A stretch of 64,000 nucleotides of DNA from Salinibacterium sp. SWN167 (GTDB taxonomy: Bacteria; Actinomycetota; Actinomycetes; Actinomycetales; Microbacteriaceae), in assembly GCF_015864665.1 (NCBI RefSeq), contig NZ_JADYWU010000001.1, forward strand, positions 1,054,001 to 1,118,000, in the 5' to 3' direction. A model generated the notes under the pieces. It was not told the DNA's origin, did not search any database, and saw nothing but the letters and a program-made list of their open reading frames with translations. Below, in pieces: positions 22,420 to 42,450 of the stretch. The position numbers and the translations under genes were made by a program. Each line of letters begins with the position of its first letter. The stretch's first letter is position 1.

Positions 22420-22700
22420 TTAGCCGGTGATGATTCGTCCGGCGGGGCTCGTCCATTCGAGTACTCCGGGCGATTTCTGGCGTACTTTCCAGCCGCCGAA
22501 TTGTTTGAGCGTGTGATGCCTGCGACATAGACAAGCGAGGTTTCCGGGCTCTGTTTTGCCACCGTGATGCCCGTCGGTGGTGTGGTCGATGTCGCTTCGA
22601 CTGGATGCCCGATTGCGGGAGCGGAACCTGCAGCGCTGATCTCGAGCGAGTGCTAATGAACTTCCCTGATCACAGTCTGAAGCGGATGTAATGCAGGCGG
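22420..22700 (-). pseudogene. 3' remnant of a DUF222/HNH endonuclease gene
   Basis: The minus-strand frame ending at 22420 reads LALARDQRCRFRSRNRASS, then SDIDHTTDGHHGG, KTEPGNLACLCRRHHTLKQ and GVLEWTSPAGRIITG. That is the C-terminal HNH domain of actinobacterial DUF222 proteins, with the zinc-binding and catalytic histidines retained. The sequence of the large N-terminal DUF222 region is absent: the frame meets a stop just upstream, and the cytidylyltransferase gene begins its last codons at 22731. It is therefore a truncated, dead copy. These genes are multicopy and mobile in actinobacteria, so this probably marks a recombination border of the locus. Confidence 0.85.
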
Positions 22701-22730
22701 GGTAGTCGGTGGTGCGGACAGGTCAAGCGG

Positions 22731-23447
22731 CTATGCTCCGACTTGGTTGCGTTCCAAGAGATCAAAGAACGTGCGGCACACGTAGTAGTCTTCGGCGGTC
22801 GTGATCTTGATGTTCGAGCGAGGGCCATCGACTCGATATAGCGTGTGCGCGTAGCGGCGAAGGAGGCTGGCTGTGTCAATTGAGTCGTTTTCACCCTCAC
22901 TGACCGCTCGGTCGTAGATATCGATTGCTGTCTCAAGCCGGAGACTTTGCGGTGCTTGGGCGAGGTAGAGAAAGTCTCGTGGCAGCACTTCGTCGATTGT
23001 TTCGTGTTCTGACGAGACGACCGTTTCAACGATCTTCGTGCTTGTGATCGCCGGGCCCAAGGAACGAACCGTGCGGATGTTGTCCGTGATGAGGTCCGCG
23101 TTTATGAGTGGTCGCACACCGTCGTGTAGCAGGACGACCGTGTCGCCGGTCGCGTCGTTGGCAACGGCGCGAAGCGCCTTGTGACGTGATTCCTGTCCCG
23201 TTGAGCCGCCGTCGACGATCCAGTTCACTTTTGTTAGCTCGTACTGTGATACCAAGCGCGCGAAGTGTTCGCGCCCCTCTGGCACTATCGACACGGCGAT
23301 CCGATCGATCTCTGGGTGTTCCTGAAAATGCTGGATGGTGTGCACGATTATCGGCGTCCCGTGAATCTCAAGAAACTGTTTCGGTAGCGCAGTTTTCGAG
23401 GCCATCCGCGAACCTATGCCACCCGCAAAAATTACTGCAACATTCAA
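22731..23447 (-). CDS. IspD/TarI-type cytidylyltransferase (first copy)
   Basis: The 238-residue enzyme carries the nucleotidyltransferase loop VAVIFAGGIGSRM with the lysine in ALPKQFLEI, then LLHDGVRPLI and the C-terminal NIKITTAEDYYV. It joins CTP to a phosphorylated polyol. Its position, overlapping a CDP-glycerol-type transferase by 4 nt, points to TarI-like activity (ribitol- or glycerol-phosphate) rather than isoprenoid synthesis; that is inference. A second copy is at 38916. No obvious TarJ alcohol dehydrogenase accompanies it. Confidence 0.85.
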   Translation of the reverse strand: MNVAVIFAGGIGSRMASKTALPKQFLEIHGTPIIVHTIQHFQEHPEIDRIAVSIVPEGREHFARLVSQYELTKVNWIVDGGSTGQESRHKALRAVANDATGDTVVLLHDGVRPLINADLITDNIRTVRSLGPAITSTKIVETVVSSEHETIDEVLPRDFLYLAQAPQSLRLETAIDIYDRAVSEGENDSIDTASLLRRYAHTLYRVDGPRSNIKITTAEDYYVCRTFFDLLERNQVGA

Positions 23448-25204
23448 GTTCTTTCATCCTCCTGTGGCAAATCTACGGTCTTAGATTCGTGGGTATAACC
23501 GGCGAGTTCATCATCCTGTGCTGAGTTCTCGTGAAGGGCGTTACGCGGATCGCCGAGGATGAGCCAATCGATCACTCGGTCGGCTGCTCCAGTATCGATT
23601 CTGTCGAAGTTCTCTGCGCGGAAGCGTGAGACTTTCGACTGCTCGTACTCTCGGGAAGAGATCGCATCGATGAGGTCCTCGAACGTCGTACAGACACGCC
23701 CTGGCGCGGTCTCATCGTAGGGGCGGTGAAACCCATTCACCGCTGCGTAGTTAACTTCATCGGGCGCGAAGAACAGCATGGGTCGGTCAAGGAGCGAGTA
23801 TTCGTAGATGATCGAGGAGTAGTCGGTGATCAAGAGGTCGGTAACGTGCAGAAGCCTTAGCCCGTCTTCAAAGTGTGTGAAGTCGAAGAAATGTTCCTGG
23901 TGTTGCTCCGGAATCGGTACTTCATTCTTAACAAAGTGATGCATACGGAACAGAACCACAGTATCGGGACCGCACGCTTCGTATAGCGCATCGAAATCGA
24001 TGAGGCGGTAATCGTAGAATGCGGTCTTGATGTCAGACCCGCGGTAAGTGGGTGCAAAGAGGATAATGCGTTTGTCGCGCAGCTCGGGGTGCGCCGAGTA
24101 GAAACCACTGACAAACGTGCGGGTACGTTCTTCGTCGAGGAACAAATCCACGCGGGGCAATCCGGTGGGAATCACCGCGCTCTCTTCGATCCCGAACACC
24201 TCGGCGTAGACCGGAACAAGGTTCACTGATCCGGCGATCGCATAGGTGTAATAGCGGTGCGCATCCCAGAGATTGGGCGAGTCCTGCCTTCCGAACCTGC
24301 TGAATCCAACTGACTTGAACCCGCTGCCAGCGTGCCAGAGCTGGATTATCCGTTTCCTGCGGTCGACCTTGAGGCCTTCGAGCATGGGGAAGTAGTCGTC
24401 GAGGAGCACGATCTCGCTGGTGGCGATGAGGTAGAGAATGTGGATCGTTGTAGACCAACGCGTGGTGTGGGGAAGACGAAACGAAGTTCGGAGGTCAAAC
24501 TTCTTGTCGAGCCCGCGCTCAACCATGCGCTCGTGGACTCGTTGGAGATTGCCTTCGGTATTCCCACGTCGGTCTGACGCGAAGAGTATCCGTCCGGGCG
24601 TCGGCCCGACTAAGCGTGTAAAAGCGTCAAAGATCCAGCGGGCGTAATGCTGCTTGGCTGCCATACCGAAACATTTTTCGTACAACCGCTTGGGAGATAG
24701 CGGATGCGCCGATGTTGCTGGACTGCGCGACAGCAGAAAACTGCGTAAAAGAAAGTCCAGCTGATTAGCGTTCTCTGCGATGTCGTAGGAGACGGTCAGA
24801 GCCGACTGGTTTGTATTGAACAAAAACACGCGTGATGCATCGTCGAGGCGTTCCAGCGCCCCACCGTCGTAGGAAGCTACCGGTCCGCTCTGGTTGTCAA
24901 GGAGCGCTTGAATTCGCCAGGTGCCATCGGGTATCGCGCTGCGCCCCGCAAAGGCTGTGACGTTGAGATGTAATGCATACACACCGGCACCCTCTGACGT
25001 CGCCGGTGCTGGCAGCGTGCGCAGGCCGTCGACGAGTTGGAAGGTGATGTTTTGTTCAGCGTTCCGCATCGGTACGTTGTCACATTGGGTCAGCAGCACC
25101 CGTATGGTCATTTGGACCCGAATCCACCCGATATCGGTGACGGCTAGAGAGTGCGTGGGTTCCGAAAGAGGCACCGCGTGGCCCGAGTTTGCTGGTTGGA
25201 GCAC
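23444..25204 (-). CDS. CDP-glycerol:polyglycerophosphate glycerophosphotransferase family protein, TagF/TarL type
   Basis: The 586-residue protein has a beta-rich N-terminal domain (about residues 1-190). A TagF-like GT-B catalytic domain follows: GRILFASDRRGNTEGN, then KRIIQLWHAGSGFKSVG with the conserved histidine, FAPTYRG, LFRMHHF, and DLLITDYSSIIYEYSLLDRPMLFF. TagF-type enzymes polymerise or add polyol-phosphates from CDP-polyols to lipid-linked teichoic acid. The GTG start at 25204 overlaps the stop of an epimerase relic (TAGTG); a later ATG (residue 32) is possible but would cut the N-terminal domain. Its CDP donor would come from the overlapping cytidylyltransferase. Confidence 0.85.
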   Translation of the reverse strand: MLQPANSGHAVPLSEPTHSLAVTDIGWIRVQMTIRVLLTQCDNVPMRNAEQNITFQLVDGLRTLPAPATSEGAGVYALHLNVTAFAGRSAIPDGTWRIQALLDNQSGPVASYDGGALERLDDASRVFLFNTNQSALTVSYDIAENANQLDFLLRSFLLSRSPATSAHPLSPKRLYEKCFGMAAKQHYARWIFDAFTRLVGPTPGRILFASDRRGNTEGNLQRVHERMVERGLDKKFDLRTSFRLPHTTRWSTTIHILYLIATSEIVLLDDYFPMLEGLKVDRRKRIIQLWHAGSGFKSVGFSRFGRQDSPNLWDAHRYYTYAIAGSVNLVPVYAEVFGIEESAVIPTGLPRVDLFLDEERTRTFVSGFYSAHPELRDKRIILFAPTYRGSDIKTAFYDYRLIDFDALYEACGPDTVVLFRMHHFVKNEVPIPEQHQEHFFDFTHFEDGLRLLHVTDLLITDYSSIIYEYSLLDRPMLFFAPDEVNYAAVNGFHRPYDETAPGRVCTTFEDLIDAISSREYEQSKVSRFRAENFDRIDTGAADRVIDWLILGDPRNALHENSAQDDELAGYTHESKTVDLPQEDERT

Positions 25205-25362: not shown

Positions 25363-25385
25363 TTTAATGATTCTACGTCACGCGC

Positions 25386-26675
25386 CTAATGCTCCATGAG
25401 TTCCTCAAGCTTGTCCACGATCCGTGGGGCGGCCCGACCGTCATCGACGGATCCGCAATGCTCGAGGAACTGCTCGATCTTGGACTCGTACTCGTGCTGA
25501 TCAAATGCGGATATGTTCTGAACTAACTCGGCGTTAGAAGTCGCCATGCTGAAGGGCGTGTCCTCAACGTCGTGATGAGAGCCGCGAACCGCGTCGAAAT
25601 TCTCGGTCTTTACTCCATACAAGAAGCTGGGCTTCCCCGTTAAGATGTAGTCGCAGACCCAGCTTGAATAGTCTGTCACGCCAACGTTCGCAACCATCAG
25701 GAGCTCTTGCATGTCCGGGTAGAACGAGACGTTGTGGCAGTAGATGGGCAGACCAGCGAACCGCTGTTTGGACGAATTCTTGTTGCTGTTGTGGGCCCGA
25801 ATGAGGAACTCCCAAGTTCCACCGAACTTGCTCCCCAAGACCTCACGAAGCCTCTCAAAATCTAAATTACTGAAAGATTGCCCGAAGCTCTTTTCGTCGT
25901 GCGTCGGCGCGAACAGCAGGAAATTTTGCCCTGTATCGGTGACATTCAAGCGGGTGAGCACTTTGCGGCGAAGATGGCCAGCGGTCTCGGTCGAATGGTC
26001 AAAAAGGATGTCGTTACGCGCATGTCCCAGTTTCAAGACGGGAACACCGGGCCAGTAGGTGCTATCAAATACGTCATCTTCGAACTGGCTGTTGGAGATA
26101 AGAAAGTCGGTTTGCCGGGACTGGAGAGTTCTCATCTCATTGAAGAAACGATCATCGCTGCCCGCACCTTCGAGCCGCTTTAGACCCAGTGACCCGTGCC
26201 ACGTTTGGATCCAATACTGGCCCGTGTTTTTCGCCACAGTTTGTAATTGAAGAGTATGGCCGTTTTGGACAATGACCTTTGCTTGTGCAGCGGTCTTGTA
26301 GAAGTCCTCCGATCCGATGCGAACGAAGCTCATCTCGCTCGGGTGGGGTCCTTGAGAGGACGGGCTCACTGCCCAGACGATGTTGTATGTAGAACCCCTT
26401 CGGATCATTTCTTCGCTGATGTATTTAGCGTTACAGGTGTACTCGCCCTGAAACGTAATGAAGAGAATAATGTTGGGATCTACGGGGGTCTTCTTCGCGA
26501 GCCGCTTCCTGGCCGTTCGCGATAGCGCAACATCGATTTTCGAAAATACGAAGTGGACCAGGACCTTATTAAGGACTCGGATAGACAGTAAGAGGACCTG
26601 AAGGGGCAACTTGATGACCCAGAAGAAACGGTTTACGAGGGTCGAAACATACTGACCGCTGATCAGCCGGCTCAA
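25386..26675 (-). CDS. CDP-glycerol glycerophosphotransferase family protein (second copy)
   Basis: The 429-residue protein is a shorter TagF-family enzyme. It has a hydrophobic or amphipathic N-terminus (residues 1-45) for membrane association, and then IILFITFQGEYTCNAKYI, YWIQTWHGSLGLKRL with the catalytic histidine, FLLFAPTHDEKSFG, and NVGVTDYSSWVCDYILTGKPSFLY. It starts on a TTG overlapping the upstream pyruvyl-transferase stop (TTGA). Codon use is noticeably more AT-rich than the flanking core genes. It probably adds a different polyol phosphate, or primes the chain for the enzyme at 23444. Confidence 0.83.
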   Translation of the reverse strand: MSRLISGQYVSTLVNRFFWVIKLPLQVLLLSIRVLNKVLVHFVFSKIDVALSRTARKRLAKKTPVDPNIILFITFQGEYTCNAKYISEEMIRRGSTYNIVWAVSPSSQGPHPSEMSFVRIGSEDFYKTAAQAKVIVQNGHTLQLQTVAKNTGQYWIQTWHGSLGLKRLEGAGSDDRFFNEMRTLQSRQTDFLISNSQFEDDVFDSTYWPGVPVLKLGHARNDILFDHSTETAGHLRRKVLTRLNVTDTGQNFLLFAPTHDEKSFGQSFSNLDFERLREVLGSKFGGTWEFLIRAHNSNKNSSKQRFAGLPIYCHNVSFYPDMQELLMVANVGVTDYSSWVCDYILTGKPSFLYGVKTENFDAVRGSHHDVEDTPFSMATSNAELVQNISAFDQHEYESKIEQFLEHCGSVDDGRAAPRIVDKLEELMEH

Positions 26676-27877
26676 CGTCCTCCACCGCCAGTTCCGTCGA
26701 GATCGTCTAAGAACGAGCCAATATAGCTAAAGGTTTTCTGCTTGAGAGCATCCTTCGTCGTCGTATCAATTTTCAAAGATTCGCTCTTGATCAGCAGTTT
26801 CACGATTTTCCTATAGTCGAGTTCTTCTTCGTTGAAGTACGCATCCCGTTCACCAAGAAGGCGAGCCAGGAAGTCGATTTTTTCGCTCCATATCAACCCA
26901 ACTTTTGGAATGTCTAGTGCATAGGCAACAATGCCCGCGTGCATCCTCGCGGCGAGGATCACCTTGAAATCAGTCATCGTGGCTAAGAACTCGACTGAAC
27001 TCTCTGGCCGCCTTAGCAACCGGTTCTGGGGCAGGCCCATGTCAGCGACCAGCTGTTCACCGAAGCGCTGATCCACTTCCATTCCATTGGAGAACAGGTA
27101 GAAGTCGACTCCTTGAATGTTCAGTTCTTCGATGAGATTCTTATAAAAGTTTGCGATTTTGAAGGAGTCGGCTTCACCGCCGTACTCCTTATAATTGTCC
27201 GGATTGATCAAATTGATGCCCACGTTCACCGCGTCGGACCGCTTTTCGATCGAGAAGGCCTCTTGAAGCCAGAACACCGGATCGCCGACGAGGTCGCTGA
27301 TGATGCTCTTGTTCGTGATGTACGAAGTGCGCAGTGTTGTCAGGTCATCTCGAGTCGTGATGACCCGAACGACATCTGAGTTGAGCGCTCGCTTGAGCTG
27401 TCTACTGCGAATATCGTTAGGATCGTACCCCTCGACACCAACGGCATTAAACATCACTGGGATGTTGCGTTTCTCCGCGATCTTGATGATCTGTTCATCT
27501 AGGTAATTCAATCCCTGAGTTTTGAACTTGATGAATCCGCCGCCCGCAATCACGAGGCCATCGAGCGATTGCATGACCTCCTTGTAGTACCAGTTCACTT
27601 TCAGCCACCACATGAAGTACTCGTAGAAGTACTGAAACGTTCGCAGTCGGATGATGGAAAAGACTATTTTCCTAGACCGGAGTAGGAGTACATGCAGGTA
27701 CAGGTTGATTCGGCGCCGCCCCTGAAAGATATGAGGATCTCGAGGATCGACATCTACATCCTGCAGAGAAATGTCAGGGGAGTGCTTTCTGAGCAAGAAC
27801 TTGGCGCTTTCAACCAAGAGATAGTCGCCGATGTTCTCGTTACTGAACAGCCCGACCACGCCTACACGTTTACGCAT
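26672..27877 (-). CDS. Polysaccharide pyruvyl transferase family protein (first copy)
   Basis: The 401-residue protein has the PF04230-type layout: VGVVGLFSNENIGDYLL at the N-terminus, then GLVIAGGGFIKFKTQG and the C-terminal VILAARMHAGIVAYALDIPKVGL, the R-x-H motif of the family. These enzymes add ketal-linked pyruvate from PEP to sugars of cell-wall polymers. The ATG at 27877 is chosen because the domain starts there; GGAGG lies 16 nt upstream, farther than usual, so the start is uncertain. The gene is lower in GC than its surroundings. A paralogue is at 37617. Confidence 0.82.
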   Translation of the reverse strand: MRKRVGVVGLFSNENIGDYLLVESAKFLLRKHSPDISLQDVDVDPRDPHIFQGRRRINLYLHVLLLRSRKIVFSIIRLRTFQYFYEYFMWWLKVNWYYKEVMQSLDGLVIAGGGFIKFKTQGLNYLDEQIIKIAEKRNIPVMFNAVGVEGYDPNDIRSRQLKRALNSDVVRVITTRDDLTTLRTSYITNKSIISDLVGDPVFWLQEAFSIEKRSDAVNVGINLINPDNYKEYGGEADSFKIANFYKNLIEELNIQGVDFYLFSNGMEVDQRFGEQLVADMGLPQNRLLRRPESSVEFLATMTDFKVILAARMHAGIVAYALDIPKVGLIWSEKIDFLARLLGERDAYFNEEELDYRKIVKLLIKSESLKIDTTTKDALKQKTFSYIGSFLDDLDGTGGGGR

Positions 27878-28384
27878 CGTGTTGATAGTCGTACCTCCGA
27901 GGTATTGATATGTCGCTGTCGTTCGAACCCGTGGCGCGACGAAACGTAAAAAATCATTTTCACATAGCCGGGCGAAGCCTCTGGACAAACCGGGCATCCG
28001 GATCGATTCAGTCTGCGGCAACGCCAGCCATTACCGGGCAGTCGTTTCGCCGAAAGCGGCCGGTAACCGAACGTGCGCTGGCGGGAATGCCCGTCACGTG
28101 ACCACGGCTGCGATCGCTGTTTCACATCGACTCTATGCCATGAAGCCTTGTGCAGTAGCGATACGAGCCGTCAGCCTGACGCCCTCTCTGTTCGCGCCCA
28201 GGCCGCTTGTCGGAGGGGACAGGGCCCTTCAGGTTGGCATCAGGCGGCTCGAAGATCACGTGACCGCGGTGGGTTTATGTGCAGTGACGGTACTCAGGGC
28301 GCTGGGCGTAAAGAACGCGTGGAACTGGCATTCCCCGGTCCTATCCGCATTCCGGCGAGTGCCGGTCCCGGTATAGCGGGCCAC
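27878..28384. other. Gap of about 500 nt with no recognisable gene
   Basis: Between the pyruvyl transferase start and the acyltransferase end I see no convincing frame on either strand. The 92-codon plus-strand frame at 28098 has no familiar motif and no ribosome-binding site. The segment probably carries the promoter of the minus-strand teichoic genes plus decayed DNA. Confidence 0.5.
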
Positions 28385-30601
28385 TCACCACAGCACGCCG
28401 CTCGCCAAGTCCGACTGACGCAACTTGGCTTCCAGCGGCTTGGCGAGGGTTCGGGCAAACGTTTCCGTGAAGTGAACGTGGTCTCGCCAGACTACGACAT
28501 TTCCTATGACAACAGCGCACGCTTCGGGATCCGGGCAGACCCAGTTGCCCATATCGATGACGTCCGCATCCGAGAGACCCTCGACGGTCCGCTCCACGTA
28601 CTCGCTGCCCGTGCCGAACGCGACCTCCCGCGGCGTCGCGCATGCGGTCAGGTTGTCCGGGTTCGCAGACATGCACTCGGGCGGGTCGCTGCTCATTCCC
28701 GGTGTCGAGGCCATCACCAGCGTCGGGATACCTTCGTCGTTCAGACGCTGAAGATTGTCGTGGAGACCATCGGCGTAAAGCAACCGGGCCTCCTCAGTCG
28801 AGAGCCCCTCTCCCCAAGCTGCTCGCGTAAACCTGTTCGCCGTGACGACGAGGTCAGGGTCCTCCGCGAGGATCTGATCGAAGCTCGTTGCGCTCCATTC
28901 GTTGCAGGTGGTGTACTCGCCACCATCGCCATCCGCCTGGCTCAAACCTGAGAACCCGCACGATGCTTTGCTGGTGATGCGCAGCTTCCAGCCGTTTTCT
29001 TCCGCGAGTGTGATGTAGGGCGATGACCAGTTGGCAGCGTGCGAATCACCTATCAGCACTACGCTCACAGCGCCATCCGGATCACCGAAAATGCAGCCTT
29101 CGATCTTCGGCGTCGCTTCGGGACTCCCCAGATGGCAGTCGAGCGCGTAGACCACAGTATTGTCCGCGCGTGCGTCGATGACGGAGGGTGTGAATCCGCC
29201 CTCGACAACATCGACCGGTTTTCCCGCATCGGTGAAGCTCGCGAGGTCATCATTGGCGAAATCATCCGTCAGCGCCTCCGCGCCAATCTTCGCCGCGGTG
29301 TCGGCCTTGTACTCCGGGTTCATGCGTCCAGGCACGACGTACACGAGGGATGCGCAGACGGCAGTCGCGGCCATCAGGCTTGCTCCCGCCAGCAGCGACC
29401 TACGCTTGGACTGCTTCAGCCATTGCCAGTTTTGGAAAGGCTTCTCGATAAATTTGTAGCTCAGCCACGCCGGAAGCACGGCGAACGCCACGATGAGTAG
29501 CCCGTATCGGACGCGCAGTTCGCCACCCAGCACATAAGTGCCGACGACGATGAGTGGCCAGTGCCACAGGTAGAGCGAGTAAGAGATGTCGCCGATCCAG
29601 CGCATCGGCTTCAGAGTGAGCAGCAGGCCGACTCCGATCTCGGCTCTTCCGTTCATGCCCCCGGCGATGATCGCAGCGGCTCCCAGAGTCGGAAGAAGCG
29701 CTGCGTAGCCGGGGAAAGGCGTGGAACCGGAGAACAGTAGTGTCGCGGCGGCAATCGCGACAAGCCCAGACCAGCCCAGCACGTAACCCAGCCAGCTCGG
29801 TATGCGCGCCACCTGCGGCGCGAAGACGGCGAGCGCCGACCCGATCGCGAGCTCCCACAACCTCGTCGTCGTGACGAAGTAGGCAGCCTCTGGATCCACG
29901 GCCGTGTGATAGATCGACCAGAGCAGCGACGGCACGAGAACCATCAGCACGCCGATGCGCGCTGCCCGCACGGCTGTCGCGCGATGATCCGCGCGCCCCT
30001 CTTGTGTCTTGCGCCGAATCAACGCGAAGAGCGCCAGCAATGCGACGAGTATCAGCGGCCAGACGATGTAGAACTGCTCTTCGACCGCCAGCGTCCAGAA
30101 GTGCTGCAATGGGCTCGCGGCGACCTCAGCGTTCAGGTAGTCGGTACCGGCCGCAAAGACCCAGTTCACCAGGTAAAGAGCGGAGGCGATCGTTTCGACA
30201 CCGATCGACTCCCACCGGATCTGTGGGAGGAATGCGACCGTGAGCACGAGGGTCACGAGCAGGACGACTGTCGCTGCGGGCAGGATGCGCCGCGCACGTT
30301 TCGCGTAGAAGTTGCCGAGCCCGATGCGCCCGGTGCTTTGGGCTTCCCGCAGTAGAATTCCCGTGATTAGGAACCCGGAGATCACGAAGAAGATGTCGAC
30401 GCCGATGAATCCGCCACTGAAGAGGGACCAATTCGTGTGGAAGAGCAGAACCGTGACGACTGCGACTGCCCGGAGGCCCTGGATATCGGGCCGGAAGCCC
30501 GAACCCTTCGGGAGCTTCTCCGTGCCGGATCCCGGTTCTCGGTCTCGCCGCAACTCTGATCGGGAGCGAGCCAGGGGCATCGGCGTAGGGGCAGAGTTCA
30601 C
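28385..30601 (-). CDS. Acyltransferase-3 membrane protein with C-terminal SGNH domain (OatA-like)
   Basis: The 738-residue protein has an acyltransferase-3 domain of about 10-11 helices: FRPDIQGLRAVAVVTVLLFH, SGGFIGVDIFFVISGFLITG, then QHFWTLAVEEQFYIVWPL. It ends in an extracytoplasmic SGNH hydrolase-like domain with VVLIGDSHAANW (catalytic serine) and WRDHVHFTETFA (catalytic Asp/His). Such fusions O-acetylate peptidoglycan or wall and surface polysaccharides. Its codon use is GC-rich, unlike the neighbouring pyruvyl transferase, so it may have a different history. The first 40 residues are a polar cytoplasmic leader, and a later start is possible. Confidence 0.88.
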   Translation of the reverse strand: MNSAPTPMPLARSRSELRRDREPGSGTEKLPKGSGFRPDIQGLRAVAVVTVLLFHTNWSLFSGGFIGVDIFFVISGFLITGILLREAQSTGRIGLGNFYAKRARRILPAATVVLLVTLVLTVAFLPQIRWESIGVETIASALYLVNWVFAAGTDYLNAEVAASPLQHFWTLAVEEQFYIVWPLILVALLALFALIRRKTQEGRADHRATAVRAARIGVLMVLVPSLLWSIYHTAVDPEAAYFVTTTRLWELAIGSALAVFAPQVARIPSWLGYVLGWSGLVAIAAATLLFSGSTPFPGYAALLPTLGAAAIIAGGMNGRAEIGVGLLLTLKPMRWIGDISYSLYLWHWPLIVVGTYVLGGELRVRYGLLIVAFAVLPAWLSYKFIEKPFQNWQWLKQSKRRSLLAGASLMAATAVCASLVYVVPGRMNPEYKADTAAKIGAEALTDDFANDDLASFTDAGKPVDVVEGGFTPSVIDARADNTVVYALDCHLGSPEATPKIEGCIFGDPDGAVSVVLIGDSHAANWSSPYITLAEENGWKLRITSKASCGFSGLSQADGDGGEYTTCNEWSATSFDQILAEDPDLVVTANRFTRAAWGEGLSTEEARLLYADGLHDNLQRLNDEGIPTLVMASTPGMSSDPPECMSANPDNLTACATPREVAFGTGSEYVERTVEGLSDADVIDMGNWVCPDPEACAVVIGNVVVWRDHVHFTETFARTLAKPLEAKLRQSDLASGVLW

Positions 30602-31774: not shown

Positions 31775-31780
31775 GACACG

Positions 31781-33891: not shown

Positions 33892-34749
33892 GTGATCGAG
33901 GATAGTCCTTCTGCGCTCGCTGAACGGTATGGATTGATTCGAGTGGGCCTTCGCCCTCGTTTCGGAAAGTACCTCGCAGACACGTGGAGACGGCGCAACT
34001 TTGCTCGCACCTTGGCGAGATATCGCATCCAGTCCGAGAACGAACGCAACCGGCTCGGCATGGCATGGGTCGTCGTTAAGCCCCTTCTTAATGCGCTGAT
34101 TTACGGACTCGTTTTCGGTCTCATTCTGGATAACGACAGCCGTCCGGAAAACTTCATTGCCTTCTTGCTTGTCGGAGTGTTCGTTTTCGAGTACTTCGGC
34201 AACTCAATCGGGCAAGGATCCAAGGCCATAATCAGCAACACCCGACTCGTGCGCAGCCTGAGTTTCCCCCGCATTCTCTTGCCGATCGCGGTGGTCTTGG
34301 AGCAGCTCTACCGAATGGTGCCAATCTTGGGCGTCCTCGGGGTACTGCTCGTGCTTTTCGGTGAGCCCGTCAGATGGTCCTGGCTGCTCATCGTTCCGAT
34401 AATGCTGATGATGTCGTTCTTCAACGCCGGGGTTGCCATGATCGTGGCCCGTATGTCGGTGCACCTCCGGGACATTAAGCAGGTTATCCCTGTCGTGTCG
34501 CGGATTATGTTCTACACCAGCGGCATCTTTTACTCAGTCGATCTGATATTGGCTCAAAGGCCAGATCTGCTCCTGATTGTTCACCTGACGCCGGTGTATG
34601 AGTTCATCAGTCTTTCGCGCAATGCCCTTCTTGCTGACTTTCCCGTCGACCCTTCGCTGTGGCTCTGGGCGGGGCTGTGGGCAGTCGGAACCTTCGTTTT
34701 CGGAGTGATTTTCTTCTGGCGAGCCGAGGAAAGGTATGGACGTGACTGA
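33892..34749 (+). CDS. ABC-2 type polysaccharide/teichoic acid exporter permease (Wzm/TagG-like)
   Basis: The 285-residue protein has a cytoplasmic amphipathic N-terminus (residues 1-55) and six transmembrane helices in the ABC-2 pattern: IYGLVFGLILDN, FIAFLLVGVFVFEYFGNSI, a reentrant PRILLPIAVVLEQLYR, and LTPVYEFISLSRNALL near the end. It forms a channel with the ATPase encoded by the next gene and would export a finished polyprenyl-linked polymer. The GTG start has GGAGGAG a few nt upstream. It overlaps the ATPase gene by 14 nt. Confidence 0.88.
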   Translation: MIEDSPSALAERYGLIRVGLRPRFGKYLADTWRRRNFARTLARYRIQSENERNRLGMAWVVVKPLLNALIYGLVFGLILDNDSRPENFIAFLLVGVFVFEYFGNSIGQGSKAIISNTRLVRSLSFPRILLPIAVVLEQLYRMVPILGVLGVLLVLFGEPVRWSWLLIVPIMLMMSFFNAGVAMIVARMSVHLRDIKQVIPVVSRIMFYTSGIFYSVDLILAQRPDLLLIVHLTPVYEFISLSRNALLADFPVDPSLWLWAGLWAVGTFVFGVIFFWRAEERYGRD

Positions 34750-35509
34750 CGAGGAACAACTCATGCTGGATTCGGGTACTCGTCCGACCATCATTGTGGA
34801 CGATGTGCATGTGCGTTATCGGACGTACGCCTCAGGAAAGCCTTCGGAGGGTGGCAAGTCACTGGCATCCCGAAGCACTCGAGGCGTACGCGAAGTGCAC
34901 GCACTCAAGGGCGTATCCTTCACCGCGTTTCAAGGCGAAAGCATCGGCGTAATTGGGCACAACGGGTCTGGTAAGTCCACCTTGCTGCGGACGGTTGCGG
35001 GCCTAACGCCGGCGTCGTCAGGTGTTGTGTATGCGGAAGACCAGCCTGCTTTGTTGGGGGTGAACGCCGCATTGTTGAACGAACTTTCCGGCGATAAGAA
35101 CGTCCGTTTGGGCGGACTCGCCCTCGGTTTTTCAGAAGCAGAAATGCGGGAAAAATACGGGTCTATCGTGGAATTCGCCGGTTTGGAAGAATTCATCCAG
35201 TACCCGATGCGTACTTACTCGTCCGGTATGTCTGCGCGGTTGCGGTTCGCGATTGCGGCGTCGAAGAACCACTCCATTCTCCTCATTGACGAGGCGCTTT
35301 CTGTCGGAGATAAGAAGTTTCGAAAGAAGAGTGAGCAGCGCATTAAAGAAATGCAGAAGGCGGCAGGAACTGTAATGCTGGTGAGTCATTCCATCAGTAC
35401 GATTTTGGAAGCCTGCTCCCGCGTTCTCTGGATTGACAAGGGTAATCTTCGGATGAACGGTGACCCAAAGGAAGTCTGCGAAGCCTACCTCGGCCACGCA
35501 AACCAGTGA
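34736..35509 (+). CDS. ABC transporter ATPase for polysaccharide/teichoic acid export (Wzt/TagH-like)
   Basis: The 257-residue ATPase has Walker A GHNGSGKS (residues 74-81), the signature YSSGMSARLRFAIA, Walker B SILLIDEALSVGDKKF and the switch histidine in LVSHSIST. The segment between the first strands and Walker A is extended with a basic linker (residues 32-52), as in TagH/Wzt. There is no C-terminal polymer-binding domain, so recognition of a terminal cap is not expected. It works with the overlapping permease. Confidence 0.9.
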   Translation: MDVTDEEQLMLDSGTRPTIIVDDVHVRYRTYASGKPSEGGKSLASRSTRGVREVHALKGVSFTAFQGESIGVIGHNGSGKSTLLRTVAGLTPASSGVVYAEDQPALLGVNAALLNELSGDKNVRLGGLALGFSEAEMREKYGSIVEFAGLEEFIQYPMRTYSSGMSARLRFAIAASKNHSILLIDEALSVGDKKFRKKSEQRIKEMQKAAGTVMLVSHSISTILEACSRVLWIDKGNLRMNGDPKEVCEAYLGHANQ

Positions 35510-36564: not shown

Positions 36565-36610
36565 AAACGTGGCCTTAGTGCCGTGACAAACGTGGCCTTT
36601 GTGCCGTGAA
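36565..36610. repeat. Tandem 23-bp repeat, two copies, running into licD
   Basis: AAACGTGGCCTTAGTGCCGT begins copy 1 (36565-36587), and copy 2 (36588-36610) differs at only two positions. Arrays like this occur at the ends of IS21-type elements, which is one explanation (inference). The first possible licD start, a GTG at 36606, lies inside the second copy. Confidence 0.75.
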
Positions 36611-36638
36611 AAAACCAACCGAAGGAGCCCGGCAGATA

Positions 36639-37586
36639 ATGCGGGAGTACGACTACAGCGACCTTAAGGATCTTGCGTCCGATTCGGAGCACAAAGAACA
36701 CATGCTCGCAGTTCTGGTCGAGTTCGACAGATTCTGCGAAGAGCATGGCCTGACGTATTACCTCTCCGGCGGCACTTTGCTTGGAGCCGTCCGACATAAG
36801 GGCTTCATCCCGTGGGACGACGACGTTGACGTCAACATGCCGAGGTCCGATTGCGAGAAGCTTATGAAGCTGTCCGGTGGCCGTATCGGAGACTTCGAGC
36901 TCCTGGCTCCGAACTCATCGCGCGGTTACTTTGCCTACCACTGGAAGCTGTATTCCGAGTCGATCTTGATTGCGAAGCGAAAAGCAGGTGGAATCGGTAG
37001 CAAGGTATACCCCATCTTCTTGGACATCTTTCCCATCGAGGGCCTGCCCGACACAGAAGCAAAGAATGACGCACACTACGCCGAGATCAGGCACCGAAAG
37101 AATCGGGTGAGTCACGCGCAAAACATAAAGCGTTACCGTGGTCCAAACCCATATCGCTTCCTCCGCAGCCACTTGGCAGCTCGTCTCTACCGCACCGTCG
37201 GCGTGCAGTCGCTCTTCGATAAGGTCATTGACCACGCGGCCTCGATGAGGGTCGAAGACTCTGACTACATCGGCGTGATGATGACGAACGTCCATACGAC
37301 CGAAGAACGCGTCTTGAAGTCCGAGTATTCTCCCATAATCAAGATGGAGTTCGAGGGGCACATGCTTTCGTGCCCGGCGGGATACGACACGTATCTTCGC
37401 CAGCTATATGGGGCGAACTACATGGAGTGGTTGCCTGTGCACCAGCGAATCCCACGCCACAACTTCGCGACTTTCTTGTCCTATACTGAAGGGGAAAAGC
37501 CGTCGGTCGCCTATGCGCAGCCGGAGGCCGTGGATCCTGAAAGGCCGATCGCCGACGACGAAGACATGCTTGATGATGTGGAGTGA
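36639..37586 (+). CDS. LicD-family phosphotransferase
   Basis: The product (315 aa from ATG 36639, or 326 from the GTG at 36606) has the LicD/nucleotidyltransferase core YYLSGGTLLGAVRHKG followed by FIPWDDDVDVNM, with the acidic metal-binding residues. LicD proteins transfer phosphocholine or other phosphoalcohols from CDP-activated donors to teichoic acids and glycans. The choline uptake and activation genes of the lic1 type are absent, so the CDP-polyol made by a neighbouring cytidylyltransferase is a more likely donor. I prefer the ATG because the GTG lies in the upstream tandem repeat; AAGGAG is 11 nt before the ATG. The C-terminal 40 residues are acidic. Confidence 0.82.
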   Translation: MREYDYSDLKDLASDSEHKEHMLAVLVEFDRFCEEHGLTYYLSGGTLLGAVRHKGFIPWDDDVDVNMPRSDCEKLMKLSGGRIGDFELLAPNSSRGYFAYHWKLYSESILIAKRKAGGIGSKVYPIFLDIFPIEGLPDTEAKNDAHYAEIRHRKNRVSHAQNIKRYRGPNPYRFLRSHLAARLYRTVGVQSLFDKVIDHAASMRVEDSDYIGVMMTNVHTTEERVLKSEYSPIIKMEFEGHMLSCPAGYDTYLRQLYGANYMEWLPVHQRIPRHNFATFLSYTEGEKPSVAYAQPEAVDPERPIADDEDMLDDVE

Positions 37587-37616: not shown

Positions 37617-38885
37617 GTGAAAATCGCTATATGCGGGCTGGTGAAGAGTGAGAATCTCGGGGAGATGTTCATCGCACGCAGCTTGGAGTACTTGATCTCC
37701 GACGGGCTTCAGAAGGCTGATCCGGGAATCGAAATCGAGTACGTGGAAGTCGACCTTCTCGGCCGGAATGACACGATCTTCGAGATTGACGATGCCCGCG
37801 AACGGCGACTTCGGAACTACCATCAGTACAGCGAGAAGGGGCAACTCACTGAGAAGGCGTTCCTGTACTTGCAGCGAAAAGGCCGCGAAGCTAAGTCCAA
37901 ATCGGTACAGAACCTCATCAGCAGGGCTCGGCACCTGATTTGGAAGCTTGGTCGCAACTACCGCAAGCGGTTGGCAAGCTACTTCGATCTGAAGCTCGAA
38001 GGGGTCGACTACATCGTCATCGATGGCGCCGGTCTCCTTGAGTACAGCTATAACGAGTACCACTGGTCATTGCTGCTCATCAGCGAATACGCGGAGCGGC
38101 ACAATCTCGAAGTGGTTTATAACGCCATTGGGAGAGCCGGTGCGTTCGATGAGCGTGACTTCGGAAGCACGATCCTCAAAAGGGCGCTCCAGTCTCCGGC
38201 CGTCACGTACGTGTCGGCCAGAGATAATCTGGACGCAGTCCAAGCGTGCGCTGGCCCGGGGCACAAGGTCAAGTTGCTCGCAGACTCGGCTTTTTGGATG
38301 AAGGAAGCCTACGCGATCGACACCGGCGTGGAACGAAAGAAGATCGGTATCGGTCTCATCCGGGGCAACTCACTGCAAGGCTACGGGGTCAGCTTTGACG
38401 CGAAACAGTGGGTGACTCTTTTCGCTGGAATCGCGACGACTCTTCGCGAGCGCGGATACGATTTCGAGTTCTTCACCAACGGGCTGCCGGGCGACGTCAA
38501 ATTGGGTAAGCGAGTCCTTAAGAGGCTAAAGCTGCCGGATTCCTATCTGGTTGATAGGCCCGTCGACGACACTGTTCTGTGCGAAACGATCAATGGCTAT
38601 GAGGCCATCATTACCTGTCGGATGCACTCATCCATCGCGGCGTTCACCATGGATGTGCCATCGGTGATCCTGTCGTGGAACGACAAGGTTGAAAAGCTGA
38701 TGACGATCATCGGGTACCCCGAACGCGCCATCCAGCAGAAGGACTTCCGGCCGGACCTTATTGTCGATCGCATGGAGAAAGCAAAGAGCGAAGGAATCGA
38801 CCCTGAACTTCTCTCTGCGATGAAAGATAAGGCACAAGAGAGCGTCACTGACTACCTCGATAGGATCCTCAATGTCCGCAACTGA
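37617..38885 (+). CDS. Polysaccharide pyruvyl transferase family protein (second copy)
   Basis: The 422-residue protein begins IAICGLVKSENLGEMFIARS and has YIVIDGAGLLEYSYNEY in place of the usual glycine-rich site. It ends with the family's motif EAIITCRMHSSIAAFTMDVPSVILSW (R-x-H). It probably adds pyruvate, or an analogous group, to a sugar of the polymer. It shares layout but not close identity with the copy at 26672. The GTG start is 30 nt after licD, and the cytidylyltransferase follows 30 nt later, so the genes form one operon. Confidence 0.78.
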   Translation: MKIAICGLVKSENLGEMFIARSLEYLISDGLQKADPGIEIEYVEVDLLGRNDTIFEIDDARERRLRNYHQYSEKGQLTEKAFLYLQRKGREAKSKSVQNLISRARHLIWKLGRNYRKRLASYFDLKLEGVDYIVIDGAGLLEYSYNEYHWSLLLISEYAERHNLEVVYNAIGRAGAFDERDFGSTILKRALQSPAVTYVSARDNLDAVQACAGPGHKVKLLADSAFWMKEAYAIDTGVERKKIGIGLIRGNSLQGYGVSFDAKQWVTLFAGIATTLRERGYDFEFFTNGLPGDVKLGKRVLKRLKLPDSYLVDRPVDDTVLCETINGYEAIITCRMHSSIAAFTMDVPSVILSWNDKVEKLMTIIGYPERAIQQKDFRPDLIVDRMEKAKSEGIDPELLSAMKDKAQESVTDYLDRILNVRN

Positions 38886-38915: not shown

Positions 38916-39626
38916 ATGATTACAGCACTGTTGACGGCAGCGGGAACCGGTTCACGGATGAAACAGGACATCCCGAAGCAGTTCATGCACGTAAAGAATA
39001 AGCCGCTGATCGTCTACACTCTGGAGGCCTTTCAAGAACACCCCTCCATTGATGCAATCGTTGTCGTCACGCTCCCGTCATGGATTGACGTCGTCTCGGC
39101 ATATGCGAAACAGCACGGAATCACGAAGTTGCAGGCTATCGTGCCGGGCGGCGCGAGCGGTCAGGAATCGATCAACAACGGTCTTCTGAAGATCAGGGCT
39201 GACGGAGCTTCGGATGACGATATCGTCATGATCCACGACGGGAACCGGTGCCTCGTCTCGTCGGAGATCATCTCTGATAGTGTCGCCGTGTTCAAAGCCA
39301 AGGGCAGTGCAGTCGCTGCTATTCCTTGTGTCGAAGCTGTGTTCAGGAGTCATGACGAAGGAGCATCGTCCACGGTTTCCATTCCCCGCGAGCAGTTATT
39401 TCGAACCCAGACACCGCATGCATACACGCTCGGCAAGCTCATGTGGGCTCACGAGCAGGCGAAACTCCAGGGCGTTGAAGACACAGCGGCATCATGCGTG
39501 CTTATGCAAGAGCTCGGCGAGACGGTTTATCTCTCGGCCGGTTCGGAACAGAATCTGAAGATCACCACCATGGACGATCTCTACATCTTCGAGTCGATTC
39601 TCGATGCCCGGAAGAGTGCTGGGTGA
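38916..39626 (+). CDS. IspD/TarI-type cytidylyltransferase (second copy)
   Basis: The 236-residue enzyme has the nucleotide loop ALLTAAGTGSRMKQDIPKQF, then VMIHDGNRCLV and the C-terminal NLKITTMDDLYIF. The HDGNRCLV block replaces the HDGARPL of housekeeping IspD, and the operon partners are LicD, a pyruvyl transferase and an SDR. Both suggest a dedicated CDP-polyol activator. It is clearly a paralogue of the enzyme at 22731 but diverged. AGGAG lies upstream of the ATG at 38916. The exact polyol is unknown. Confidence 0.83.
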   Translation: MITALLTAAGTGSRMKQDIPKQFMHVKNKPLIVYTLEAFQEHPSIDAIVVVTLPSWIDVVSAYAKQHGITKLQAIVPGGASGQESINNGLLKIRADGASDDDIVMIHDGNRCLVSSEIISDSVAVFKAKGSAVAAIPCVEAVFRSHDEGASSTVSIPREQLFRTQTPHAYTLGKLMWAHEQAKLQGVEDTAASCVLMQELGETVYLSAGSEQNLKITTMDDLYIFESILDARKSAG

Positions 39627-39630
39627 GCTG

Positions 39631-40701
39631 ATGGCGTATAGCAGTTCCTACTGGGACGACCTCCGTACGGCGTTGGCGTGTATCCCCGATGCGAAGAAGC
39701 TCCACGGAACCCGTATTCTCGTGACCGGAGCGACGGGGATGATCTGCTCATCAATTGTCGACGTTCTCCTCTTCATGAACCGAGAGCACGGCGCGAATAT
39801 CACTGTCTTCGCCGCGGGCCGCAGTGAGCAGGCTGCCGTCGAGCGGTTCGCACGTTTTTCGGCGGGCGACTCCGGCATCGTCTTCGTGCCGTATGACGCG
39901 ACGTCGAGCGAAGGAGTCGCGCTTGATTCGGATGTTGACTACATCATCCATGGCGCAAGCAACGCGAATCCCGCCCTATACATGGAGCGACCTGTAGATA
40001 CGATGCTTGCGAACATTCTCGGGCTGTCGAGTATGTTTGACTTGGCTCGCGCCACTTCGGCACGAAAGCTCCTGTATATCTCGTCGAGCGAGGTCTACGG
40101 AAAGAGTGAGGGCACGCACCCGTATGCGGAGAACGACTTCGGTTACCTGGACATCTTGAACGAGCGTGCGGGGTACCCGTCATCGAAGCGTGCGGGAGAG
40201 TCGCTGTGTGTCGCTTATGGGATGCAGTACGGCATTGACTCCGTGATCGTGAGACCCGGACATATTTACGGGCCGTCGATTCGGAGTTCGGACAATCGCG
40301 CTTCGGCGGAATTCACCCGGAATGCTGTCGCCGGGAACGATGTGGTTTTGAGAAGCAAAGGGAGCCAGCTGCGCTCGTACTGTTACTCGCTCGATTGCGC
40401 ATCGGCGATTCTCACTGTTCTCCTTCAAGGAGAGCGGGCCAACGCCTATAACATCTCGAACCCTCACTCCATCTGCACAATCAGTGACATCGCGGAGGCC
40501 ATTGCGCACGCGGGAGGGGTAGAAGCTCGCTACGACCTCTCGGCAGAGTCAGGGTTGAGCGCCCCCAGTCTGATGCAGAACTCATCGTTGGCCTCAGATA
40601 AGTTAGAGGCGCTAGGGTGGAAACCGGCCTTCGATCTTGAGCGCGGCGTCGGCAGAATGATGTCGGTGCTGAAAGAACCCGGCGGGCCATTCTCGGTCTA
40701 G
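39631..40701 (+). CDS. Extended SDR NAD-dependent epimerase/dehydratase
   Basis: The 356-residue protein has the NAD-binding GTRILVTGATGMICSS, in which the usual third glycine region reads GMICSS rather than GFIGS. It also has YIIHGASNANP, the serine block LLYISSSEVYGKSEG and the catalytic YPSSKRAGE (Y-x3-K). It would reduce, epimerise or dehydrate a nucleotide sugar or CDP-linked product. The ATG at 39631 lies 5 nt after the cytidylyltransferase stop, so the two are coupled. In other genomes SDR/IspD/LicD sets occur in capsule loci; the product here is not deducible. Confidence 0.83.
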   Translation: MAYSSSYWDDLRTALACIPDAKKLHGTRILVTGATGMICSSIVDVLLFMNREHGANITVFAAGRSEQAAVERFARFSAGDSGIVFVPYDATSSEGVALDSDVDYIIHGASNANPALYMERPVDTMLANILGLSSMFDLARATSARKLLYISSSEVYGKSEGTHPYAENDFGYLDILNERAGYPSSKRAGESLCVAYGMQYGIDSVIVRPGHIYGPSIRSSDNRASAEFTRNAVAGNDVVLRSKGSQLRSYCYSLDCASAILTVLLQGERANAYNISNPHSICTISDIAEAIAHAGGVEARYDLSAESGLSAPSLMQNSSLASDKLEALGWKPAFDLERGVGRMMSVLKEPGGPFSV

Positions 40702-40780: not shown

Positions 40781-41085
40781 TTATGAATTTCCAGTAACCC
40801 GGTAAGTGGCACCTGGCCATTGTTCGACTGAATTGACACAGCGACCGTCGGCGGAGTTCTTGATGCCGGGAAGGTCTGCCGGCGTGAGTCCTCGGTATTC
40901 GGCGTGCTCAGGCTGCACCACCGCTGTATCCACCGCCTCACCAAGGTAGTGCGGGGTGAAGCCGAGGCCGGCGAGCTCGTCATCGCCGTACAGGGGATCA
41001 TGCACGAGCGCTGTTGCGTTCTGGCCGTCGTCAGGTAGGACACCAAGACTGTTCGCGAACTCTGCGACCGTGGCATCGTCGTGAA
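40781..41085 (-). pseudogene. Tandem partial copy of the UDP-HexNAc dehydrogenase 3' end
   Basis: The frame reads HDPLYGDDELAGLGFTPHYL, then DTAVVQPEHAEYRGLTPADL and QWPGATYRVTG, ending at 40781. The intact gene just upstream on the same strand ends with DPLYTDDELGALGFAPFHW, VVVQADHAEYRTLTEEQL and QWPNATYRVIG. About 75 C-terminal codons are clearly paralogous and everything before them is missing. The stop of the intact gene is about 75 nt from this copy. It is diverged enough to be an old paralogue rather than a fresh duplication. Confidence 0.85.
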
Positions 41086-41160
41086 AAAGGGTGAGTCGAT
41101 CTTCGATGGAGCGGTTGCCGAAGCTGTCGTAGTGCTGAAAGTCGCACTCCGCGCTACGCG

Positions 41161-42450
41161 CTAGGCCGTACCGATGACCCGGTACGTGGCATTCGGCCAC
41201 TGACCGGCAGAACTCACGCGGCGACCATCGATGAAGGTGCGGATGCCCGGCAGCTGTTCCTCGGTCAGAGTGCGGTACTCGGCATGGTCGGCCTGCACTA
41301 CGACGGCGTCGACAGACTCGCCCCAGTGGAACGGCGCAAAGCCGAGCGCACCAAGTTCGTCGTCGGTGTAGAGCGGGTCTTGCACGCTCACGACGGCTCC
41401 ACGGGCTTCGAGAGCGGCGACAGTCGGGAATACGCCCGAGAACGCCGTCTCTTTTACGCCGCCGCGGTACGCGGCACCCAGTACCGCGACGCGCTGGCCC
41501 GTGAGGTCTCCATGGGCGCCCTCGAGCATCCCGACCGCATATTCGGGCATACCCGCGTTCGCCTCACGAGCGGCGCGCACAACAGTCGCGTCAGGGTCGT
41601 TCCAGAGGTACAGGCGTGGGTAGACCGGAATGCAGTGTCCGCCAACCGCAATTCCGGGCTGGTGGATGTGGCTGAACGGTTGCGAATTTGTGGCCTCGAT
41701 GACCTGATAGATATCGATACCCGTCTTGTCCGCAAACCGAGCGAACTGATTGGCGAGGCCGATGTTTACATCGCGGTAGGTGGTCTCAGCGAGCTTAGCG
41801 AGCTCGGATGCTTCGGCTGATCCGAGATCCCAGACACCGTTGGGGCGCTTGAGGTCGGGGCGCTCGTCGAAGTCGAGAACAGCGTTGTAGAAGTCGGTGG
41901 CGCGAGCCGCGCCCTCGTCAGAGAGCCCGCCTATGAGCTTCGGGTACTTGCGGAGGTCTTCAAACACGCGACCCGTCAGCACTCGCTCGGGCGAGAACAC
42001 CAGGTGGAAGTCGGTGCCCTCCGTGAGGCCAGAAACTTCTTCAAGCAGCGGCTTCCAGCGTGTGCGGGTGGTGCCCACCGGCAGGGTGGTCTCGTAGGAA
42101 ACGAGAGTGCCGGGGGTGAGGTGTTCGCCGAGCGAGCGGGTCGCGACATCCATCCATCCAAAGTCGGGGTTGGCGTCATTGTCGACGAAGAGTGGAACGA
42201 CCAGCACTACTGCATCAGCGCCGGGGATCGCGTCGGCGTAGTCGGTGGTTGCGCGCAGCTTGCCGGCGGGCACAAGTTCGCTCAGGCGCTCTTGCAGGTG
42301 GGCTTCACCGGGGAACGGCTCGATGCCCTTGTTGATGAGATCAACAAAGCTCGCGTTGATGTCTACTCCCACGACTTCGTGGCCCTTTGAAGCGAATTGA
42401 ACGGCCAAAGGGAGGCCAATTTTGCCGAGAGCAACTACCGCAATTTTCAC
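41161..42450 (-). CDS. UDP-N-acetyl-D-mannosamine/-glucosamine dehydrogenase
   Basis: The 429-residue NAD-dependent dehydrogenase begins KIAVVALGKIGLPLAVQFA, has SYETTLPVGTTRTRW and the catalytic cysteine in AVGGHCIPVYPRLY, and ends with the UDP-binding domain AVLGAAYRGGVKE. The GGHCIP form and overall pattern fit the WecC/WbpA group, which makes UDP-HexNAc uronic acids, rather than Ugd. It could feed the WbpB/E/D-like enzymes at 51.5-54.2 kb. The GTG start has AAGGA upstream. Two decayed relatives lie at 35.7 and 40.8 kb. Confidence 0.87.
   Translation of the reverse strand: MKIAVVALGKIGLPLAVQFASKGHEVVGVDINASFVDLINKGIEPFPGEAHLQERLSELVPAGKLRATTDYADAIPGADAVVLVVPLFVDNDANPDFGWMDVATRSLGEHLTPGTLVSYETTLPVGTTRTRWKPLLEEVSGLTEGTDFHLVFSPERVLTGRVFEDLRKYPKLIGGLSDEGAARATDFYNAVLDFDERPDLKRPNGVWDLGSAEASELAKLAETTYRDVNIGLANQFARFADKTGIDIYQVIEATNSQPFSHIHQPGIAVGGHCIPVYPRLYLWNDPDATVVRAAREANAGMPEYAVGMLEGAHGDLTGQRVAVLGAAYRGGVKETAFSGVFPTVAALEARGAVVSVQDPLYTDDELGALGFAPFHWGESVDAVVVQADHAEYRTLTEEQLPGIRTFIDGRRVSSAGQWPNATYRVIGTA

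Follow-up and report, generated by a model that had tools for sequence, protein, structure and literature searches.

The DNA analysed here, referred to as the window, is a stretch of 64,000 nucleotides from Salinibacterium sp. SWN167 (C1:1054001-1118000, genome 3.0 Mb). Between genes for a UDP-galactopyranose mutase (UGM) and a nucleotide-sugar dehydrogenase (UGDH2), its 22.7-40.7 kb region behaves, on comparison with relatives, as an exchangeable wall-glycopolymer cassette. The locus combines genes for a galactofuranose (Galf) polymer with genes for a pyruvylated alditol phosphate, and we consider it evenly balanced whether these form a cassette for a single hybrid or covalently joined polymer that leaves through one exporter. 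More broadly, and with slightly less confidence, we propose that the genus switches whole wall-polymer types via UGM/UGDH2 recombination, like pneumococcal capsules, one type being a Galf/pyruvylated hexitol phosphate hybrid with a teichoic-type exporter replacing the galactan exporter. The genes concerned are the following (window coordinates and strand).

14670..16025, +, LCP family ligase (PF03816), conserved left border of the variable slot and presumed peptidoglycan anchor
19280..20308, +, GT2a, GlfT1-like family 2 glycosyltransferase (92.5 bits, NCBIfam cut-off 330)
20305..21144, +, GT2b, family 2 glycosyltransferase adjoining UGM
21059..22309, +, UGM, UDP-galactopyranose mutase for UDP-Galf supply and left recombination anchor (PF03275; TIGR00031 350 bits, cut-off 303.75)
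22731..23447, -, TarI1, CDP-alditol cytidylyltransferase (PF01128, IspD)
23444..25204, -, TarL1, polyol-phosphate polymerase-type transferase (PF04464, Glyphos_transf; best PDB match TarL 8va1, 267 bits)
25386..26675, -, TagF2, second polyol-phosphate transferase (PF04464; TarF model 94 bits, below cut-off)
26672..28021, -, PyrT1, pyruvyl transferase (PF04230, PS_pyruv_trans)
28385..30601, -, AT3-SGNH O-acyltransferase, here AT3 (Acyl_transf_3 plus SGNH; SucT-like, below cut-off)
31781..33646, +, GlfT2-type galactofuranan polymerase (PF17994 and PF19320 above cut-off; 492 bits to PDB 9dtp, 459 to GlfT2 4fix)
33892..34749, +, Wzm exporter permease of the phosphopolyol-associated group (ABC2_membrane)
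34736..35509, +, Wzt exporter ATPase (ABC_tran)
36606..37586, +, LicD-family phosphoalditol transferase (PF04991)
37617..38885, +, PyrT2, pyruvyl transferase (PS_pyruv_trans)
38916..39626, +, TarI2, CDP-ketose/alditol cytidylyltransferase (PF01128)
39604..40701, +, short-chain dehydrogenase/reductase (SDR), predicted CDP-ketose reductase yielding CDP-mannitol or CDP-6-glucitol (PF01370; best PDB matches 8v4g/8v4h)
41161..42450, -, UGDH2, nucleotide-sugar dehydrogenase and right recombination anchor (UDPG_MGDP_dh, TIGR03026)

The exchange of the cassette was followed through 27 genomes of the genus (relatives' genomes carry G labels). Full-length GlfT2 is present in four, a fifth giving a weak family 2 glycosyltransferase match only, and UGM at 97% or more is found in the same 4/27, the remaining matches being short; in all four GlfT2- and UGM-containing genomes the locus lies between the same flank genes. 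TarL1 likewise occurs in 4/27, with three strong matches and a weak one in G008, and LicD shows the same pattern. The cassette of the window is common to G012 and G013, where gene content and order are unchanged and protein identity is 87-98%, except for AT3, which has no match in the 39.8-kb stretches of either genome. By GlfT2, Salinibacterium sp. NG253 (94%) is the closest named relative. Between the same anchors, G008 contains a different cassette with the same gene classes, comprising a LicD and methyltransferase stretch, a Glyphos_transf protein, an IspD, a short-chain dehydrogenase and an IspD-dehydrogenase fusion, together with a pyruvyl transferase, a second Glyphos_transf, GlfT2 and a galactan-group Wzm-Wzt pair. 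Protein identity to the window is 61% for its GlfT2, 27% for Wzm and 35% for Wzt. The G008 UGM has one TAG inside the matched stretch, and its open frame of 385 amino acids starts after the long start assumed here.

The borders of the exchange are visible in the DNA. Compared with G008, the eight genes of the left flank, from UGDH1 to GT2b, are 74-78% identical, the two halves of UGM 90 and 93%, and those of UGDH2 91 and 90% (in 250-base steps, 90-94% for UGM and 86-96% for UGDH2); the cassette DNA has no match except GlfT2 (69%). Beyond UGDH2, GT1x is without a match and MsbA stands at 69%. This step, with high identity in the anchors and low identity in the flanks, looks like recombination exchange within UGM and UGDH2. 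Seven GlfT2-less genomes of the genus have an LCP profile match in each slot examined; in their LCP-UGDH2 slots, profiles detected no GlfT2, UGM, Glyphos_transf, LicD or PyrT, and other sugar genes lie between LCP and UGDH2, five of the seven slots looking like dTDP-rhamnose type cassettes by profile scores only. The LCP gene adjoins the variable slot, as would suit the attachment role assigned to its product in an earlier note on this DNA, a role that stays predicted.

The same note had counted UGDH2, as a UDP-HexNAc dehydrogenase, among the polymer genes. Its relatives of at least 67% identity occur in 16/27 genomes of the genus (in G024 split across two contigs), 12 of the 16 being without GlfT2, and on this spread its membership was rejected. 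UGDH2 may go with the GFO, DegT and hexapeptide genes at 51.5-54.2 kb (window 51552-54222), which together with a UGDH2 relative occur, all four, in loci L035 and L037. These four genes look like what we take to be a diacetamido uronic acid pathway.

Two relics lie beside UGDH2.

40784..41044, -, diverged UGDH2 C-terminus (54%, amino acids 339-429)
41018..41152, +, G008-type galactan Wzt C-terminus of 45 codons (71%, amino acids 207-251)

The Wzt relic is also found beside UGDH2 in G013 (84%), and the two relics together suggest that this site probably once held an older locus with a galactan exporter; the failure to find the Wzt relic in G012 weighs on the other side. A single event in which a LicD-SDR module split one UGDH gene was considered and rejected, since the relics in G012 stand in the wrong order (amino acids 263-325 left, 368-429 right), which calls for at least two events. 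Both the borders of recombination and the exporter relic point to block replacement of wall polymers in the genus, which probably alters phage and predator recognition. AT3, with a G+C content of 63% against 50% for PyrT1 and 60% for GlfT2 on its two sides, looks like a late insertion. A transposase relic (PF13683 integrase core, 1.4e-7), presumably of the IS481 type, is located at window 30602-31780 between AT3 and GlfT2. Such UGDH, Wzt and transposase relics in the gaps, and the lack of AT3 in the two nearest relatives, are what an accidental, partly decaying island of unrelated glycan genes would present; this explanation is nevertheless very improbable, as the frames are open in the window and, AT3 excepted, retained in G012 and G013 with protein identities of 87-98%, and the same classes appear again in G008 and in other genera.

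As to gene content, every family named in the earlier note is present at its place with a Pfam score above the cut-off. Among the matches listed, NCBIfam cut-offs are reached only by UGM, the LCP domain model and a general dehydrogenase model, and because so few are reached the precise enzyme names should be read as predictions. The gene list of the note was right and its interval was not, as UGM, needed by GlfT2, lies just to the left at 21059-22309, and the dehydrogenase at the other end is a flank gene. The UGM frame overlaps GT2b, and its true start is probably further in. GlfT2 aligns over its full length (6-619 with 9dtp) and retains the DDD, WDD and WH stretches, which we take to be catalytic. 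Residues 184-546 of TarL1 align with TarL 8va1 (NCBIfam TarL 314 bits, below the cut-off of 1000), and the sole PDB match of LicD below E 0.01 is Fukutin-related protein (2.7e-7).

The exporter was placed in a FastTree phylogeny of 79 Wzm-Wzt pairs. The window pair clusters first with one of the two pairs of Demequina L038, the second (53/61% identity, support 0.99), and next with that of Cellulosimicrobium arenosum L069 (support 1.0); Glyphos_transf genes adjoin both of these, and the pair of G008 is nearest that of Cryobacterium L003 (72/84%), among the galactan exporters. The window locus consequently contains no galactan-group Wzm-Wzt, a galactan-type Wzt being present only as the relic, and judged by synteny the exporter belongs to the phosphopolyol module. 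Seven ABC2_membrane loci are found in the genome, and the Wzm profile detects two of them, one in the cassette and one at C2:613 kb. The latter (G000:C2:612998-613834) is a core gene present in 27/27 genomes of the genus, and each Galf genome of the genus has just two Wzm matches. Because the other profile-found Wzm is core, the cassette exporter would be the one dedicated to this locus. The core Wzm-Wzt locus adjoins a weak Glyphos_transf gene and represents a second, conserved polymer system.

The chemistry of the phosphopolyol half is indicated by its relatives. G294, a genome of another Microbacteriaceae genus that falls outside the 80 GlfT2 carriers in a sample of 398 genomes of the family, contains the phosphopolyol set in window order (Wzm 41%, Wzt 57%, LicD 58%, PyrT2 74%, TarI2 74% and SDR 62% identity, plus a short AT3-like piece) and, on a separate contig, a relative of PyrT1 (45%) next to TarL/TagF-like genes. 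The data say, as far as conserved order can, that exporter, LicD, PyrT2, TarI2 and SDR are one functional unit. In G294, LicD and PyrT2 form one frame of 776 amino acids as assembled (L222:17129-19459), and G370 joins a PyrT to a TagF-type Glyphos_transf domain in one frame of 1033 amino acids as assembled (L227:5783-8884). The fusions suggest that pyruvate is placed on the alditol phosphate handled by LicD and TagF, providing a sharp prediction of the pyruvyl transferase acceptor. The earlier expectation of Galf polymerase, exporter, CDP-alditol genes and pyruvylation together holds within the genus, with the amendment that the polyol is a likelier carrier of the pyruvate than Galf. Such a placement has parallels in known walls: the available text of PMC6801904 describes 2,4-pyruvylated ribitol phosphate for Nocardiopsis metallicus and 4,5-pyruvylated mannitol phosphate for Brevibacterium iodinum.

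TarI2 (38916-39626) and the SDR (39604-40701) overlap as an adjacent PF01128/PF01370 pair, a combination that the accessible part of PMC10918830 assigns to the CDP-6-glucitol/CDP-mannitol pathway. The pair fits this pathway, making a CDP-hexitol the most likely product predicted for the TarI2/SDR arm. The best PDB matches of the SDR are the CDP-6-fructose reductase structures 8v4g/8v4h (142 bits), followed by UDP-glucuronate decarboxylases. The latter score nearly equally (122 bits), and the SDR beside the TarI1 homologue of G370 matches UDP-glucuronate decarboxylase better, both of which count against the assignment; the 8v4g/8v4h structure was itself solved from UDP-glucuronate decarboxylase 2b69 (PMC10918830, in the text available).

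For the TarI1-TarL1 arm, ribitol and hexitol both appear possible. The best PDB matches of TarI1 are 5ddt (IspD, the top match), 3f1c, 2vsh, 4jis and 6xhp, of which 4jis and 6xhp are named ribitol-5-phosphate cytidylyltransferase and 3f1c and 2vsh are presumably TarI too. The match of TarL1 to TarL 8va1 and the closeness of TarI1 to 4jis and 6xhp favor ribitol, while the IspD at the top of the TarI1 matches counts against it. So does the SDR like that of the window (33, 43 and 35%) that adjoins the TarI1 homologues in G370, G334 and G146; it is PF01370 by Pfam in G370 and G334. No TarJ was noticed among the window genes, where no search was aimed at it. A housekeeping IspD role for TarI1 or TarI2 was considered and rejected: the genome has another IspD, a frame of 424 amino acids at C1:964779 whose length suggests IspD-IspF, so neither TarI1 nor TarI2 need serve isoprenoids.

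In the proposed mechanism, UGM would make UDP-Galf, the GT2 pair would prime the chain and GlfT2 would build the galactofuranan in the cytosol. TarI1, TarI2 and the SDR would produce one or two CDP-alditols, that of the TarI2/SDR arm most likely being CDP-mannitol or CDP-glucitol, from which TarL1, TagF2 and LicD would transfer alditol phosphate, and PyrT1 and PyrT2 would put pyruvate ketals on the alditol units. The product would be exported by the single cassette Wzm-Wzt and attached to the wall by LCP. Here the families, synteny, signs of exchange, relics and fusions are observed, and the substrates, the linkage order, the position of pyruvate and the attachment are what we infer from them. 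A single hybrid or joined polymer is favored by the joint presence of GlfT2 and phosphopolyol genes in two different cassettes of the genus, and by the clustering of Glyphos_transf neighbours in the GlfT2 clade of the window. This clade has seven members (support of 98 in the SH-like approximate likelihood ratio test), six with a Glyphos_transf neighbour and the seventh on an 8.4-kb contig. On a GlfT2 tree of 56 rows (62 rows minus G012, G013, L017, G143, G204 and G094; all GlfT2 trees used only rows above 600 bits, including at most 10 of the best 80 named loci described below), the Glyphos_transf label changes 8 times, where shuffling gives a mean of 12.7 (P 0.0005).

The same locus might, as a substantial though less probable alternative, serve two polymers, one a teichoic acid of pyruvylated poly(alditol phosphate) that has an exporter to itself, the other a galactofuranan that leaves by a different system, e.g. 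the core Wzm-Wzt. The occurrence of exporter, LicD, PyrT2, TarI2 and SDR without GlfT2 in G294 is consistent with this, as is the grouping of the window Wzm-Wzt with the L038 and L069 exporters beside Glyphos_transf, apart from the galactan exporters, L038 having both kinds. Against it, each cassette of the genus has one exporter, of opposite kinds, the core exporter is present in 27/27 genomes of which 23 are without GlfT2, and the GlfT2 of the window clade travels with Glyphos_transf. Between the two, we regard the single polymer as somewhat likelier.

The association was also examined beyond the genus. Of the 80 GlfT2 carriers in the family sample, 78 lie outside the genus, and 51 of their loci were analyzed (a few on short contigs, with missing genes scored absent), as were the best 80 of 579 named GlfT2 loci (L labels; 10-kb flanks, some contigs shorter), which include Rothia, Kocuria, Arthrobacter and Actinomadura. 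Neighbours were sought within 20 kb per side for the G loci and 10 kb for the L loci, farther partners being scored absent, and IspD was counted from 150 bits, scores of about 100 bits being excluded as probable RmlA-type nucleotidyltransferases. The usual galactan core is evident in the best 80 named loci by tblastn, with relatives of UGM in 73, Wzt in 66, Wzm in 58 and GT2a in 44. The window also contains, at 17232-19244, a DUF6541 protein (PF20176, 560 bits) that has relatives in 21 of these 80 loci and may belong to galactan assembly.

Among the 51 loci, an IspD-type gene occurs in 13 and Glyphos_transf in 9, with both in 8, IspD only in 5, Glyphos_transf only in 1 and neither in 37 (Fisher P 1.6e-5), and PyrT accompanies Glyphos_transf in 5/51 (P 3e-4), the loci in both tests not being independent by descent; AT3 has no association with Glyphos_transf in these loci (0/9, P 0.33). 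By these figures the phosphopolyol genes move together, as a module, among GlfT2 loci; as all loci counted are GlfT2 loci, the figures concern that module rather than its coupling to GlfT2 itself. G172 has nearly the whole list, with GlfT2, an IspD-dehydrogenase fusion, an acyltransferase, two pyruvyl transferases, a GT2-Glyphos_transf fusion, Wzm-Wzt, UGM and a dehydrogenase, and G146 has a TarI1-SDR-AT3 group about 28 kb from GlfT2, beyond the 20-kb reach.

Several observations weigh against a single polymer. Glyphos_transf lies within 10 kb of GlfT2 in only 4/80 of the best named loci (L002, L003, L038 and L069) and within 20 kb in only 9/51 loci outside the genus, and it is common anyway (300/398 genomes of the family). 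In G294 no GlfT2 accompanies the phosphopolyol half and its exporter, which together with the 9/51 count implies that either half is able to function by itself; the two adjacent exporters of Demequina L038 are what two polymers would require; and the shuffle test ignores shared descent, the clade rows L069 and G201 being long-branched. The earlier note had proposed a search of other Microbacteriaceae for the same set and order. G012 and G013 have both, G008 the same classes and G172 nearly the full list, while each half also stands alone. Its concern that the halves might belong to unrelated loci is borne out by G294 and not by the genus, where GlfT2/UGM and the phosphopolyol genes occur together.

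A further possibility, which we consider unlikely, is that an alditol-phosphate teichoic acid carries Galf only as a short primer, cap or side chain, with GlfT2 adding a few residues. The phosphopolyol-associated exporter would suit such a polymer, and for Streptococcus oralis the available text of PMC3989065 proposes a transfer of ribitol phosphate to Galf, a similar gene being present in Haemophilus parainfluenzae strain 17. On the other hand, GlfT2 aligns full-length with the GlfT2 structures and, with UGM in 73 and Glyphos_transf in 4 of the best 80 named loci, is usually without nearby phosphopolyol genes.

The mycobacterial and corynebacterial galactan is synthesized by the set Glf, GlfT1, GlfT2 and Wzm-Wzt. 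The window resembles this system in its UGM, its GlfT1-like GT2 and a GlfT2 whose full length matches 4fix (459 bits). By contrast, its exporter falls outside the galactan group, it adds CDP-alditol and pyruvyl genes, and no arabinosyltransferase was found among the 40 window frames scanned. The TarI-TarL system of ribitol wall teichoic acid is similar in the alignment of TarL1 with TarL 8va1 and the closeness of TarI1 to 4jis and 6xhp, and differs in the top match of TarI1 to IspD 5ddt and in the PF01370 SDR adjoining TarI1 homologues elsewhere. Campylobacter jejuni HS:5 and Mnp1-Mnp2 of Streptococcus pneumoniae 35A (CDP-6-D-glucitol/CDP-D-mannitol) are matched by the PF01128 and PF01370 pair, the best PDB match of the SDR being the C. 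jejuni enzyme; unlike in those systems, the window SDR is distant (142 bits), with a predicted product, and is linked to LicD and a pyruvyl transferase. According to the available part of PMC10918830, D-mannitol phosphate genes had until then been functionally annotated only in S. pneumoniae 35A.

Chemically, the phospho-glycero-beta-galactofuranan of Bifidobacterium bifidum carries glycerol phosphate on an actinobacterial galactofuranan (PMC6920858), a likeness in galactofuranan plus phosphopolyol and a difference in the glycerol, pyruvate not being mentioned in the accessible text; this comparison concerns chemistry, not genes. The teichoic acids of Brevibacterium iodinum and Nocardiopsis metallicus share poly(alditol phosphate) with pyruvate on the alditol, and the accessible text of PMC6801904 mentions neither Galf nor any genes. 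No paper on Galf with teichoic acid in Microbacteriaceae was found in the open-access literature, and the portions available of PMC10978784, PMC12113805 and PMC12286996 contain no such polymer structure. Each chemical element has precedents; we found no open-access paper on the combination, subscription journals lying mostly outside the search. To a specialist, the least expected features would be the cassette exchange and the pyruvyl fusions. For pyruvylated alditol-phosphate polymers, known chemically in Actinobacteria (PMC6801904, available text), the locus offers a testable gene set and adds a Galf limb.

Elsewhere in the window, two adjacent O-antigen ligase/polymerase (Wzy_C) genes at 57465-60088 probably serve a different surface glycan. 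At 48986-50221 both strands carry long frames, of which the minus-strand frame (363 amino acids) has no Pfam or NCBIfam match, and the plus-strand frame (387 amino acids), with weak matches to family 4 glycosyltransferase domains below the cut-off, is probably the real gene.

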